From Candidatus Nitrosotalea bavarica (GTDB lineage: Archaea; Thermoproteota; Nitrososphaeria; Nitrososphaerales; Nitrosopumilaceae), in assembly GCF_900167955.1 (NCBI RefSeq), contig NZ_FUYK01000001.1:5318-51549 (forward strand): a DNA stretch of 46,232 nt, in the 5' to 3' direction. Shown one piece after another: positions 790-16,518 of this stretch. The translations under genes were made by a program, and so were the position numbers. Under the pieces are notes generated by a model, which had not been told where the DNA came from, made no database searches, and worked only from the letters and a program-made list of their open reading frames with translations. Every line of letters begins with the position of its first letter. Within the stretch, counting starts at the first letter, position 1.

Positions 790-1602
790 ATGAGTTCAGA
801 TAAAACATCAACCCAAAAAATGATCCTAGAAGGTATTAGTTATGCCAAGCTTAAAAAACATAAAGATGCAATATCATTTTTTGACAAGGCCTTAAAACAA
901 GACCCAGAAAACATTGACGCACTTTACAACAAAGGAATGTCTTTGTTAGAGTTGAAGAAAAATAAGGACGCAGTATTATGCTTTGAGAAAATAATTGAAT
1001 ACAAGCATGATCATGTTGACGCACTAAATAATTTGGGAAATCAGTGTGCAGAATTACAACAATTTGAAAAAGCAGTTACATATTACAACAGAGCACTAGT
1101 AAGTGAGTCCAATTATATTCCTGCATTATACAATAAGGGAATTGCAACAATTCGACTTGAGAGATATGATGATGCACTTGATTGCATGAATAAGGTCCTA
1201 GATATGGAACCAGAAAACATACAAGCTATGCACTATAAGGGATTGGTTCTAGGTAAACAAAAAAAACATGAGGATGCAATATACTTTCTTGATAAAGTTC
1301 TAGAAAAAGAACCAGAAAATAATGAAGCGCTATTTTACAAGGCAACTGAATTATCTGAGATTGGAAGACATCAAGATGCAATATTGATCTTCGATAAAAT
1401 ACTAAAGGAATTTCCAAAAAATGGCACTATAATTTATGCAAAAGCAAGAAGTAAAGCTCAACTTGGTGAAGATAGTGATGCATTAATTCTTCTCGCACAG
1501 GCAATCTCCCACTATGGTAAAACCATAAAGAAATGGGCAGTTAAAGATTCTTCATTCGATAAACTAAAAGGGGATCCCAAATTCAAGACTATAGTGAAAT
1601 AA
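790..1602 (+). CDS. Tetratricopeptide repeat (TPR) protein
   Basis: A 270-residue protein made almost wholly of about seven 34-residue TPR units (e.g. ALYNKGMSLLELKKNKDAV, ALYNKGIATIRLERYDDAL), with a short C-terminal tail (FDKLKGDPKFKTIV) of a kind common after TPR arrays. There is no signal peptide or membrane segment, so it is probably a cytosolic scaffold for protein-protein contacts. The stop codon is one base before the ATG of the small downstream gene, so the two are very likely co-transcribed. The partner is unknown. Confidence 0.88.
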   Translation: MSSDKTSTQKMILEGISYAKLKKHKDAISFFDKALKQDPENIDALYNKGMSLLELKKNKDAVLCFEKIIEYKHDHVDALNNLGNQCAELQQFEKAVTYYNRALVSESNYIPALYNKGIATIRLERYDDALDCMNKVLDMEPENIQAMHYKGLVLGKQKKHEDAIYFLDKVLEKEPENNEALFYKATELSEIGRHQDAILIFDKILKEFPKNGTIIYAKARSKAQLGEDSDALILLAQAISHYGKTIKKWAVKDSSFDKLKGDPKFKTIVK

Positions 1603-1603
1603 A

Positions 1604-1903
1604 ATGTCTGAAGATATACTAAAAACCGTCAAGAATTTGATCACATCCGGTAAAGGAGATTCAAAGAGATTACGAGAAATAATCGAGGTTATAAAAAAAG
1701 GAGAACCTGTAGTCATGTCAGATTATAGATATATTCAAACATTGACCGAATCTTTGAAAGTTGTTGATGGAGAACAATCTCCAAGTATAAAACCAAGTAA
1801 AAGACACGAATCATTAGAACTGCTTCGAGTCAGACTTGCAGAAGGTCAGATAACAGTTGAAGAGTTTAGAAAACTCAAGGACGCTCTTACAGAAGATGAA
1901 TAA
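1604..1903 (+). CDS. Small protein with C-terminal SHOCT-like motif
   Basis: A 99-residue soluble, charged protein. Its last 30 residues (LELLRVRLAEGQITVEEFRKL) match the short helical SHOCT-type pattern of L..L..L...G.IT.EEF..LK, found at the C-termini of many prokaryotic proteins and thought to aid oligomerisation. The N-terminal 60 residues are helical and unrecognised. It begins one base after the TPR gene stops, implying translational coupling and joint function. Confidence 0.75.
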   Translation: MSEDILKTVKNLITSGKGDSKRLREIIEVIKKGEPVVMSDYRYIQTLTESLKVVDGEQSPSIKPSKRHESLELLRVRLAEGQITVEEFRKLKDALTEDE

Positions 1904-2068
1904 AAGAAGAAATTCTTCTTAAATCTTAAATTCAAAAAGGCTAGAGCTGAATATAAGATTGAAATTGGAACAAAATCAATATCATGTCTATAACTATCAA
2001 GTATGGACTTTACAATCTTGCACTATATGGTTAAAGAGACAAGTTTCAGTTCCAGATAGTGATTAGAC
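1904..2068 (+). other. Intergenic region upstream of the tubulin-like gene
   Basis: About 165 A+T-rich bases. A TATA-like stretch (actatatgg, near 2022-2030) lies about 43 bases before the proposed TTG start, which would leave a leader of roughly 15-20 bases. I find no tRNA, hairpin terminator or small ORF here. This suggests that the tubulin-like gene has its own promoter instead of being read from the TPR operon. Confidence 0.35.
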
Positions 2069-3454
2069 TTGTCAAAGTTTGCACCATTACCACCCGCACC
2101 AGTCATTATGACATGTTTTGGTCATTGTGGAATTGGTCTAGGTGCAGAGACATATAGGAGATTATTAATTGATGTTGGCGCTGATCCCCTAAAACCAACC
2201 TTAAAGGGTGAAAAGGATGAATCCCGTATACTCAAGAGATATGGAAGTACTATTTTGCGATTTCCAAATGCATACGGTGGAAGTGAAATTCCATTAATTC
2301 CAAGAGCATTGTTAATCGATTTAGACCCAAGAGCCGCCAATTTGATACTACAGTCATATCCAGATCTTTTTGCGTTAAGAGACAAGCATGTAATATCAGG
2401 AGCTGGAGGCGCTGCAAGAAATTGGGCAGAGGGTCGTACAAGATTCATCAAAGAAGTAAGTACAAAATATGATATGCAAAAACAACTTGCTAGTCTTTCT
2501 CCTGAACCAGTGAGAGGATTTACTATTCCATTTGCAATGGGTGGTGGTACTGGTGCTTCATTTGCCAGTGCCTTTATGCAATATATTAAAAAAGATACAA
2601 AAGAACATGCAACAATTGCATCATTTGGATTATTACCAGAGTTTGGATGGGATCCAGTAATTTTAGAAGCATCTGCTATCAACATTGTAATGAATCTAGA
2701 ACACCAGATAAAATACAGTGACTGTTCAATTCTATTTTCAAATAAAAGACTAAGAGAGTTAGCACAAAAGCATGAGAAAAGATTAGATAAAATGTCATCA
2801 ATTATAGATGACCTTCCAAAGGAGCATGAAGTAGGTTGGAAGGATTACAGAGGGATGAACTTGATTGCAGCAAATGCAATGTCCATGTTTGTGGCATCAT
2901 TTGCAAGAGAAACAGAGTGGGACATGTCAAACTATAGGACGTGGCTTGCAACAAAAAGACCAAGATTTGCAATCACTTGGGTAATTCCAGTAGTTCCAGA
3001 AGAAAGACAATGGGGTGCTGATTTGACCGGTACTAAACATAACACAATGGAGGGAATTGTAGAACACATCAATAAGAAAGAAGATGCAGTATTGTTTGAT
3101 ATTGATGAAAATGACATAAGAGATAAAGGCGGACCTAAAGACTCTTGTTGTATACTTGTCAAAATAAGCGGAGATTTTGAAGCAAAGGAAAGAGACATTC
3201 TAAAGAACATAATAAAAGACAGATTCCACATCGAAGAATCCAGAATGATATTCATCAAGATTCCAATCTTAGAAACAGAACAGGCAAATATCACAATACT
3301 TGTAAACACTAAAGCAATCGGAACCAAGATTTTAGAGATTGCAAGTGAAGCAGAGGCTTCATGGGATGCTTTCAAAGAGGAATATGGAAAGTGGGGATTG
3401 ACCACTGAGGAATTCAAGGCAAGCCTCATGGACGTAGTCCATGAGTTTAGCTAG
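2069..3454 (+). CDS. Tubulin-family GTPase (artubulin-like)
   Basis: A 461-residue protein, close to the length of eukaryotic tubulin (about 450) and longer than FtsZ or CetZ cores. Landmarks run in tubulin order: T1-like GHCGIGLG (18-25); a PRALLIDLDP strand (78-87) like tubulin PRA.LVDLEP; SGAGGAARNWAEG (110-122) like tubulin SGAGNNWAKG; the G-box GGGTGAS (158-164); SDCSILFSN (217-225) like SDCAFMVDN, with the guanine-contacting Asn; T7-like EWDMSN (283-288); and a C-terminal VNTKAI (412-417) followed by a helix pair ending TTEEFKASLMDVVHEF, like tubulin's EF.EA...M..L..EY. NWA.G and the C-terminal helices are tubulin traits absent from FtsZ. The catalytic T7 acid is Asn here, as in the non-catalytic style of beta-tubulin (Lys there). 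There is no acidic tail. The TTG start is chosen because strand 1 needs the residues before Met14 (ATG at 2108). It is tightly linked to the next gene. Confidence 0.85.
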   Translation: MSKFAPLPPAPVIMTCFGHCGIGLGAETYRRLLIDVGADPLKPTLKGEKDESRILKRYGSTILRFPNAYGGSEIPLIPRALLIDLDPRAANLILQSYPDLFALRDKHVISGAGGAARNWAEGRTRFIKEVSTKYDMQKQLASLSPEPVRGFTIPFAMGGGTGASFASAFMQYIKKDTKEHATIASFGLLPEFGWDPVILEASAINIVMNLEHQIKYSDCSILFSNKRLRELAQKHEKRLDKMSSIIDDLPKEHEVGWKDYRGMNLIAANAMSMFVASFARETEWDMSNYRTWLATKRPRFAITWVIPVVPEERQWGADLTGTKHNTMEGIVEHINKKEDAVLFDIDENDIRDKGGPKDSCCILVKISGDFEAKERDILKNIIKDRFHIEESRMIFIKIPILETEQANITILVNTKAIGTKILEIASEAEASWDAFKEEYGKWGLTTEEFKASLMDVVHEFS

Positions 3455-3456
3455 AT

Positions 3457-4002
3457 ATGTCAGATTTTACATTCTTAGAACAGGTCGCAACCCGTATTAG
3501 AGAAAATAGAACAAATCTAAAGGATATAGAAGATGAGCTTGCAACAGTAAATTTCAGAATCCATGAAATTCCACTCAAAAGCCCTACAGAATCAACATTT
3601 GCAAAGATGATAGGTCAAGATTATCATGATCCAACAACAGACTTGGAAAGTGCAAAAGAGAAACTCAGTGCACAAAAAGAAGATTTGAGTACAAAGATAA
3701 AAGAAGACATTTCGACGTTCATAACGGAATTCACTTCACAGGAACTAGTGATTCCTTTAGAGCCAAACCCAAAGATTGCAGATGGAAATACAATTTTTCA
3801 TTACAAAAATAATGTCACTTTTAACAACATACTTGCAATACTAAGCGAGCTATTAGGCCTCTCCCCACCAATACTTGTAAAAGATGTAATGTTTTCAGCA
3901 TCTGAAATTGTCATAAAAGTAACCGATGAGTATGAGGCCAAACAAAAATTCTTGAGCAGTTTAAATGAGGTCCAAAAGACATTAGCAATCAAGAGAAAAT
4001 AA
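3457..4002 (+). CDS. Coiled-coil protein encoded directly after the tubulin-like gene; unknown function
   Basis: A 181-residue soluble protein that I do not recognise. Residues about 5-95 are predicted by eye to be largely helical with heptad-like charge patterns (e.g. RENRTNLKDIEDELATVNF, AKEKLSAQKEDLSTKIKED). Residues about 95-181 look like a compact alpha/beta domain. Its ATG lies 2 bases after the tubulin-like stop, so the two are almost certainly translated from one mRNA. By position it is the best candidate for a binding partner or regulator of the tubulin-like filament; that is inference only. Confidence 0.75.
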   Translation: MSDFTFLEQVATRIRENRTNLKDIEDELATVNFRIHEIPLKSPTESTFAKMIGQDYHDPTTDLESAKEKLSAQKEDLSTKIKEDISTFITEFTSQELVIPLEPNPKIADGNTIFHYKNNVTFNNILAILSELLGLSPPILVKDVMFSASEIVIKVTDEYEAKQKFLSSLNEVQKTLAIKRK

Positions 4003-8574: not shown

Positions 8575-9071
8575 AGTTTTCTCAGTCTTGTCGTAAATAG
8601 AACCATTACAATTGATAATACCATTACGAGAGGAGCAATACTTGAGAATTCTGGAAGATATGTGGTTCCTACAACACTTGTTTTAGTCAAACCAGTCTGA
8701 TTAAATTTGAGCATCATAGTAGAGCTGTTCGTACCTGGAATTACTATCACGGAAATTGGTTTTTCATTTTGAGATACGGTCAGAGTTCCCCCAATCAAAT
8801 TATGTGGTATTTCAATTTCAGCAATATTTCCATCGTGAGTACTATTACCAGTAAAAATTAATTCCTTGTTGATTTCGTTAAAAGTAACATTTTTCATATC
8901 ATAGTTTGAGACTGTACTCACATCAAATGTATAATTTCCTGCATTAATTTGCCAGTCCCACTTTATCCCAGGATGATTAAGACCTTCAGGGGCAGGGATT
9001 AGTTGTGCATAAGCTGGTACTGGTAACAAACCCATTAACAATATACACGATAAGAAAATTTGAGTTCTCAA
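8571..9071 (-). CDS. Secreted protein with PEF-CTERM-like C-terminal sorting signal
   Basis: 166 residues. An N-terminal signal peptide (QIFLSCILLMGLLPVPAYA) is followed by a beta-rich domain of about 110 residues and a C-terminal LPEFSS motif, a hydrophobic helix and a basic end (TTRLRKL). That tripartite tail matches the archaeal PEF/PEFG-CTERM signals processed by archaeosortase-type enzymes. Translation apparently starts at TTG, overlapping the L15e stop (TTGA), so the two are coupled. The role is unknown. Confidence 0.72.
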   Translation of the reverse strand: MRTQIFLSCILLMGLLPVPAYAQLIPAPEGLNHPGIKWDWQINAGNYTFDVSTVSNYDMKNVTFNEINKELIFTGNSTHDGNIAEIEIPHNLIGGTLTVSQNEKPISVIVIPGTNSSTMMLKFNQTGLTKTSVVGTTYLPEFSSIAPLVMVLSIVMVLFTTRLRKL

Positions 9072-15564: not shown

Positions 15565-16518
15565 ATGGAATTTCAAATGAAAGAACCAGTTTTAGTTGTA
15601 GGGTTAGGCGGCGCAGGATGTAAACTTGCTATCAATATCAAGGAAAAACTTGGCTATGACTGCCTTCTGGTAAGCCATGACGCAAGAGATCTAAATCATG
15701 ATGCTTCAAAAATACTGATCAACACAAGTCCAGTCCTAAATCCATCGGCATATCTCATAAGAGGTGTCTCATTTGGTGCAAGAGGTTCCATGGAGGCCAA
15801 GATAAACGGATATTCCACTATAATGATTATTGCCAATTTAGCAGGAAAATCAGGCGCTGCTCTGGCTCCAGTAGTATCTCAAATTGGCAAAGAGTTAGGA
15901 AAAAGCATACTTTCATTTGGAATCATGCCATTCAAGTTTGAAAAAGATAGAATATTCTTCTCAGGAGTTTCCCTAAAGAGACTAAAGGCAAATTCTGATT
16001 GCACTGTAATAATAGACAATGATGCATTACTTGAGAGTAATCCAGACCTTACTCCAGATGCATGCAATGTCATAACAAATTCGGCTCTAGCGCACGTAAT
16101 ATCCACTCTAAAGAACTCATCATTGCCACTTCAAACAAGCATACTTTCAACCAGTAAAGACATCTCAGATATAGAGACATCCCTTAGAGATTCAATCAAG
16201 ATGCTATACGAAGATGTATCAGCAAACAGCATCAAGAAAACTCTAATGTATGTAGTAGGCGGAAACAAGGTTCCAATAGGAATTCTAAATTCAATGGTAA
16301 ATACAATAAGCGGAATTTTCGGAAATGACAGTACTAGAGTTAGCATGTCAGTCACCGCAGGTGAAAATTCCAAAGTTGTTCTACTTACTTCAATTGAAGG
16401 TGAAACACGCTTTGACAGATACGACCCACTTGGTTTCATACCAAAAGAAAATGTTCTTGATTGGGATGAGCCAGATGCAAGTGTAAAGATTGATCTTAAC
16501 TTAGATCAAATAGAATAG
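15565..16518 (+). CDS. Divergent FtsZ-like (tubulin superfamily) protein
   Basis: 317 residues with an FtsZ-like fold order: a first strand and T1-like loop LVVGLGGAGCKLAINI (10-25); the segment LAGKSGAALAPVVSQIGKEL (92-111), which aligns with FtsZ GGGTGTGAAPVIAEIAKE but has lost the GGGTG G-box; GIMPFKFEKD like KPFSFEG; and NVITNSALAHVISTL like the helix before T7. The catalytic NxDxxD loop is not seen (SLPLQTSILSTSKDI there). It is therefore probably a weak or non-GTPase. FtsZ homologues with diverged nucleotide sites are, as I recall, known in this phylum, where division is thought to be by Cdv/ESCRT proteins. Convergent with L31e. Confidence 0.8.
   Translation: MEFQMKEPVLVVGLGGAGCKLAINIKEKLGYDCLLVSHDARDLNHDASKILINTSPVLNPSAYLIRGVSFGARGSMEAKINGYSTIMIIANLAGKSGAALAPVVSQIGKELGKSILSFGIMPFKFEKDRIFFSGVSLKRLKANSDCTVIIDNDALLESNPDLTPDACNVITNSALAHVISTLKNSSLPLQTSILSTSKDISDIETSLRDSIKMLYEDVSANSIKKTLMYVVGGNKVPIGILNSMVNTISGIFGNDSTRVSMSVTAGENSKVVLLTSIEGETRFDRYDPLGFIPKENVLDWDEPDASVKIDLNLDQIE

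Follow-up and report, generated by a model that had tools for sequence, protein, structure and literature searches.

Organisation of the artubulin locus

The window analysed here is a continuous stretch of 46,232 nucleotides from contig NZ_FUYK01000001.1 of Candidatus Nitrosotalea bavarica, and the gene under study is an open reading frame near its start that encodes an artubulin. The host is a soil archaeon that oxidises ammonia, the latter as the original prediction had held, and the archaeal amoA gene is found in the window's own assembly. The artubulin gene begins with a TTG codon and is followed almost immediately by a second gene, referred to below as the partner. The features of the locus are as follows.

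790–1602, forward strand: TPR protein of 270 residues (Pfam TPR), the upstream neighbour of artubulin in the genus
1604–1903, forward strand: SHOCT-like protein of 99 residues (PF09851, E = 4.5e-4, below its cut-off)
1984–2001, forward strand: conserved element ATGTCTAYAACWATCAAG, 18 nt, at −85 from the artubulin start
2059–2063, forward strand: Shine-Dalgarno-like GTGAT, 5 nt ahead of the artubulin TTG and kept across most of the Nitrosotalea upstream alignment
2069–3454, forward strand: artubulin, 461 residues in 461 codons, TTG start (open reading frame and translation)
3457–4002, forward strand: coiled-coil partner, 181 residues, starting 2 nt past the artubulin stop

Translation of the frame at 2069–3454 gives the motifs SGAGGAARNWAEG, GGGTGAS, SDCSILFSN, ETEWD, NTKAI and EEFKASLMDVVHEF, and every motif named in the original prediction is present. 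The protein matches the Pfam domain Tubulin, PF00091, with E = 3.3e-16 (60.6 bits, against a cut-off of 33), and the same domain is matched by all 22 diverse artubulin homologues; the Pfam search detected no other domain in the protein, and no NCBIfam model matches it. Over nearly its full length it is 75–79% identical to loci named Nitrosarchaeum and Nitrosotenuis. Public loci with 94–97% identity to the gene bear the labels Ca. Nitrosotalea, Nitrosopumilales or Thaumarchaeota, and include that of Ca. Nitrosotalea devanaterra at 95%. Comparisons with relatives at dS values of 0.4–2.4 give dN/dS ratios of about 0.02–0.04, indicative of strong purifying selection. We conclude from these sequence comparisons that the frame is the Nitrosotalea orthologue of artubulin; artubulins are already known, and the present gene adds another member.

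Only two PF00091 proteins are encoded in the window's genome, artubulin itself and an FtsZ-like protein at 15565–16518 of the window. The latter, an FtsZ paralogue on the forward strand 12 kb downstream of artubulin, carries a degenerate AGKSGAAL in place of GGGTGTG, so that within this genome artubulin alone of the superfamily retains an intact GGGTG. This T4 signature is kept in all 78 of the 78 artubulin loci compared, and nearly all carrier genomes have a single artubulin.

Relationship of the GTPase half to tubulin

The GTPase half of artubulin comprises approximately residues 12–234. Sequence matches in the PDB are headed by the Asgard tubulins AtubA and AtubB, followed by gamma, alpha, Odin and beta tubulins, and are limited to about residues 12–240; among the eukaryotic tubulins it is gamma-tubulin that ranks first by profile score. 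When the 22 artubulins are compared as a profile using hhalign, the score is 124 (98.7%) for tubulins, 36.5 (32%) for CetZ and 26 (3.4%) for FtsZ. In a tree of the GTPase domain (214 columns), calculated with a small reference set in which the Asgard sequences are partial, the artubulins form a single clade (100/100) and group with tubulin (tubulin clade 93.8/92), with CetZ and FtsZ apart in a clade of their own (94.1/98). Likelihood mapping likewise sets artubulin and tubulin against CetZ and FtsZ in every quartet among those listed. The alpha-, beta- and gamma-tubulin and CetZ references were compared residue by residue with PDB chains, the letters of CetZ1 being taken from the PDB chain; the E. 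coli and B. subtilis FtsZ references were verified over part of their length.

Profile scores, PDB ranking, tree and likelihood mapping thus agree with the original prediction that this is an artubulin rather than an FtsZ or CetZ. In published work with many more sequences the exact position of artubulin was left unresolved (PMC13394414), and another many-sequence analysis favours its placement inside the tubulin family (PMC9871819).

The C-terminal half

The description 'true tubulin', used in the original prediction, holds for the GTPase half; the C-terminal half has neither a significant sequence match to tubulin nor a detected PF03953 domain. Of the two Pfam domains that the prediction proposed to search for, Tubulin was found, as given above, and Tubulin_C (PF03953) was not, there being no match in any of the 22 artubulins at E ≤ 10. 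Residues 297–461 taken alone give no significant hhalign match to tubulin (0.4%).

An AlphaFold2 model of artubulin, built from 22 close homologues, has a mean pLDDT of 42. In this low-confidence model a C-terminal strand is followed by predicted helices at residues 415–441 and 446–460, an order that is the same as that of S10, H11 and H12 in tubulin, and the NTKAI motif aligns with NTTAI of alpha-tubulin. When the model is compared with known structures using Foldseek, every one of the top 50 rows is a tubulin; the alignments span the full length at TM-scores of 0.22–0.30, and we count them as weak support because the TM-scores are low and the model is of low confidence. A tubulin-like fold in the modelled C-terminal half can be regarded as suggestive only.

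It is scarcely credible, nevertheless, that artubulin is a CetZ- or FtsZ-type protein that has come to resemble tubulin by convergence only. The GTPase fold is common to all of these families, and such an origin would sit comfortably with a C-terminal half that finds no significant tubulin match, but the profile scores, the tree and the likelihood mapping all favour tubulin, and even a poor model returns nothing but tubulins in the top 50 Foldseek rows.

The T7 motif

The T7/H8 motif of artubulin, RETEWDMSNYRTWL (residues 280–293), is identical in all 22 aligned artubulins and is unchanged even in lineages that are 53–60% identical overall. We examined 80 public artubulin loci, 78 of which cover the motif; it is exact in 77 of these, the other having Phe in place of Tyr289, and all 78 retain Asn288. 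Alignment with other members of the superfamily shows that Asp285 falls on the T7 Asp common to tubulin, FtsZ and CetZ, and that Asn288, when aligned by sequence across a loop of different length, corresponds with Glu254 of alpha-tubulin, Asp212 of E. coli FtsZ and a Glu in CetZ. The T7 acid position is therefore occupied by Asn, as originally predicted, and invariably so. Non-acidic residues are also found at the equivalent position in beta-tubulin (Lys) and gamma-tubulin (Gly). Three acidic residues beside Asn288, namely Glu281, Glu283 and Asp285, are invariant among the 22 aligned artubulins. In FtsZ and tubulin, loss of the T7 acid slows hydrolysis of the GTP bound to the neighbouring subunit.

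A coiled-coil partner downstream of artubulin

The gene at 3457–4002 lies directly downstream of artubulin in 41 of the 41 loci that were oriented on artubulin, and directly after it in each of the 75 public loci of adequate length; in the remaining five of the 80 the contig ends before the partner could fit, or artubulin itself is cut. In most loci 2–18 nt separate the two genes; in a few they overlap slightly when open reading frames are called from the first start. Among 19 divergent loci the partner is the only non-overlapping neighbour common to all, the runner-up being found in 7 of them. All 95 of the artubulin genomes recovered from a sample of 400 across the order also have a partner match; in G331 the two genes are on two contigs, both of which end beside the genes. 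The partner evolves faster than artubulin, being 29–36% identical where artubulin is 53–60% identical, and its dN/dS of 0.04–0.10 denotes purifying selection.

The AlphaFold2 model of the partner has a mean pLDDT of 92. The predicted fold comprises a two-helix coiled-coil hairpin (residues 4–51 and 60–92), a small α/β domain (about 106–153) and a C-terminal helix (158–180). Searches of Pfam, of PDB sequences and, using Foldseek, of PDB folds gave no reliable match to the partner; weak Pfam hits with names such as Mis12, Spc24 and Dam1 were taken for coiled-coil noise and discarded. The original prediction had suggested that artubulin might need a partner subunit. The adjacent coiled-coil gene fits this idea better than a second tubulin would, artubulin and FtsZ being the only PF00091 proteins of the genome. 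The downstream gene is not discussed in the portions of the text of PMC3349469 and PMC3835317 available to us, and it may be the gene drawn as a conserved hypothetical in a figure of PMC3349469; as far as these portions extend, the two-gene module of artubulin and coiled-coil protein appears undescribed.

Two artubulin–partner pairs are present in one assembly from family f3 (L039 and L040, in G092), the artubulin copies being 85% identical, with the same T7 motif in both. Two pairs are also seen in G384 (L175 and L176), an assembly that has 5% contamination and possibly represents two strains.

Distribution and inheritance

Artubulin is present in 33 of 36 other Nitrosotalea genomes and in 95 of the 400 genomes sampled across the order, where it is spread over four families. 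The 'rare group' of the original prediction is thus near-universal in this genus. Within the family to which the genus belongs, many complete genomes have no artubulin. Carriers in families f10 and f13 are without amoA in the seven genomes tested. Beyond the order, 398 sampled genomes of the phylum yielded no carrier, and neither did plasmid records. A weak match in G110 was set aside as part of a 904-residue frame, and two apparently bacterial loci, L105 (BMAH01000059.1, 'Gammaproteobacteria') and L133 (DAIDAO010000036.1), are almost certainly misassigned archaeal contigs.

In a tree of RpoB, families f10 and f13 split from the ammonia oxidisers, and among the latter f2 branches first, then f3, then f8 together with f1. 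The artubulin tree, in which f2 and f8 are not represented, has the same branching order (98 for the f1 clade), and because of this agreement artubulin looks to have descended vertically and to have been lost repeatedly. In the partner tree f2 falls between f10/f13 and f1/f3, at a lower support of 72. The sequence data fit the presence of both genes in the ancestor of the order, with artubulin later lost in f2 and f8; early exchange between lineages may also have taken place. Being inherited vertically over four families, in some of which ammonia is not oxidised, artubulin is an old trait of the order and no mere curiosity of one genus, and its age there bears on scenarios for the origin of tubulin.

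Loss of artubulin and fate of the partner

The genome G017, from the same genus and 99% complete, is without artubulin and retains a 40-residue remnant of the partner, with in-frame stops, beside the same TPR gene (L162, near 8868–8987). G282, a Nitrosarchaeum-type genome that is 97% complete, similarly has no artubulin, only a short partner remnant with a stop (L168); this remnant is adjoined by an intact Snf7/CdvB gene (L168, 7999–9069). In G102, from family f13, the partner is a full-length pseudogene with several stops, and artubulin was not found. From these three cases we conclude that artubulin can be dispensed with and that, in the lineages concerned, the partner is not retained once artubulin has gone.

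The partner family is nevertheless wider than artubulin. Family f2 (L153–L158) has full-length homologues at a different locus, where no tubulin gene adjoins them, and a shorter form, matching from model position about 55–85 onward, occurs in family f8 (L159–L161); such homologues, in families that lack artubulin, indicate that the partner family has, or has acquired, a role of its own. Those of f2 sit between a radical-SAM-like frame and a frame of 546 residues.

Functional implications

Given that the same gene lies downstream of artubulin in every locus of sufficient length and decays when the tubulin is lost, the two probably belong to one machine. Our preferred reading, to which we assign a probability of about 0.6, is that artubulin and the partner constitute an operon and a functional unit, in which a GTP-binding filament with altered hydrolysis is organised by the partner. 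Artubulin would bind GTP and form head-to-tail protofilaments. With Asn at the position of the T7 catalytic acid, hydrolysis at the subunit interface would be slow, or would be rerouted via Glu281, Glu283 or Asp285, and this altered hydrolysis could in turn give rise to long-lived filaments. The partner would bind artubulin, its helical hairpin serving to crosslink, anchor or regulate the filament. Since the pair has been lost in several genomes and is dispensable, a part in cell shape, organisation or an accessory step is more likely than one in essential division. The wider proposal, that this is an obligate two-protein cytoskeleton distinct from microtubules, FtsZ rings and ESCRT-III, present in the ancestor of the order, repeatedly lost, and surviving as the partner alone in two families, we consider to be evenly balanced.

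Other roles can be envisaged. Artubulin could be a catalytically inactive scaffold or nucleator, akin to gamma-tubulin, and not a dynamic polymer, with the partner recruiting or capping it. This is unlikely but deserves serious consideration, given that beta- and gamma-tubulin are also non-acidic at the T7 position, that gamma-tubulin leads the eukaryotic tubulins in profile score, and that there is a single artubulin in nearly every carrier genome; on the other hand, the genome has no alpha/beta-like tubulin to be nucleated, and the invariant acids adjacent to the T7 position count against an inactive protein. A link with cell division through ESCRT-III (CdvB/Snf7) is improbable. It was predicted by Yutin and Koonin (2012) on the basis of the adjacency of Snf7 and artubulin in Nitrosarchaeum (PMC3349469), and a Snf7 gene (PF03357, E = 2e-9) does lie just upstream of artubulin in Nitrosarchaeum-type loci. 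Among the loci fetched, however, it is only in those of Nitrosarchaeum type that the two genes adjoin, and there is no Snf7 gene beside 2069–3454; that the adjacency is missing in N. uzonensis had already been noted in PMC3835317. Moreover, Snf7 is intact in G282 although artubulin has gone and the partner is a remnant, and artubulin is absent, as noted above, from many complete genomes of the same family. On one f13 contig, in which the artubulin side is cut off, a distant Snf7 homologue is located about 2.8 kb from the partner.

Still more improbable is that the adjacency of artubulin and partner reflects a frozen operon in which the work of the partner is unrelated. The stand-alone homologues in f2 and f8, full-length and shorter respectively, would be accommodated by such an arrangement, but the adjacency persists over four families while all other neighbours change, and the partner decays on loss of artubulin in G017, G282 and G102. 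It is thus the coiled-coil protein, and not ESCRT-III, to which the conserved gene neighbourhood points as the associate of artubulin. The ESCRT-III neighbour, which was the sole earlier clue to artubulin function, proves to be local to one genus, and the universally adjacent, co-decaying partner provides the first testable handle on that function and a target for co-expression.

Comparison with other tubulin systems

Artubulins are among the few prokaryotic proteins that have been proposed to lie near the root of tubulin, and to what is known of them the present analysis adds the module with the partner, the natural cases in which both genes have been lost or broken, and the vertical pattern of distribution. 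The artubulins of Nitrosarchaeum and Nitrosotenuis (PMC3349469; PMC3835317) are orthologous to that described here, with the same motifs and, in loci that are sufficiently long, the same downstream gene. In contrast to the published loci, the locus in the window has the TPR and 99-residue genes upstream and no Snf7 neighbour.

The best PDB matches, the Asgard AtubA/AtubB (PMC13394414) and OdinTubulin, are alike in the tubulin-type GTPase domain, but the match extends over only about residues 12–240, no pair like AtubA/AtubB is present here, and artubulin has its own T7 motif. Eukaryotic gamma- and beta-tubulin resemble artubulin in the GTPase half and in the non-acidic T7 position, but artubulin has no detected PF03953 and has EWDMSN instead of N.DL at T7. 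In Prosthecobacter BtubA/BtubB, with the TPR protein BtubC, an accessory gene likewise adjoins a tubulin homologue of prokaryotes. The TPR gene near artubulin in Nitrosotalea recalls BtubC but is not conserved (25/41 loci), and artubulin differs further in that there is a single tubulin gene and in that its conserved accessory protein has a coiled coil in place of TPR.

Other neighbours and the upstream element

The loci in which the TPR gene adjoins artubulin include only 3 of the 19 divergent ones; this gene does not belong to the conserved module and is a neighbour limited to the genus and its close relatives. The 99-residue SHOCT-like gene, found near artubulin in 26 of 41 loci, likewise lies outside the conserved module. 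On the other side, a gene for a virginiamycin B lyase-like protein of 516 residues (PF24684; 4072–5622 of the window, forward strand) follows the module in about half of the loci.

The sequence between these upstream genes and the artubulin start includes the 18-nt element at 1984–2001, from which a weaker conserved block runs on to about 2037. Neither an RNA fold nor an Rfam family was found for the element, and an upstream conserved frame of 16 codons was rejected as a leader peptide because its stop shifts between species. Copies with 16–18 of 18 matches lie 83–88 nt ahead of the start in Nitrosotalea loci, g6 loci and one f3 copy, and 75 nt ahead of it in two of the three Nitrosotenuis-type loci. 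The exact match is unique in the genome. The element is kept between genera in which synonymous changes approach saturation, and it is probably regulatory.
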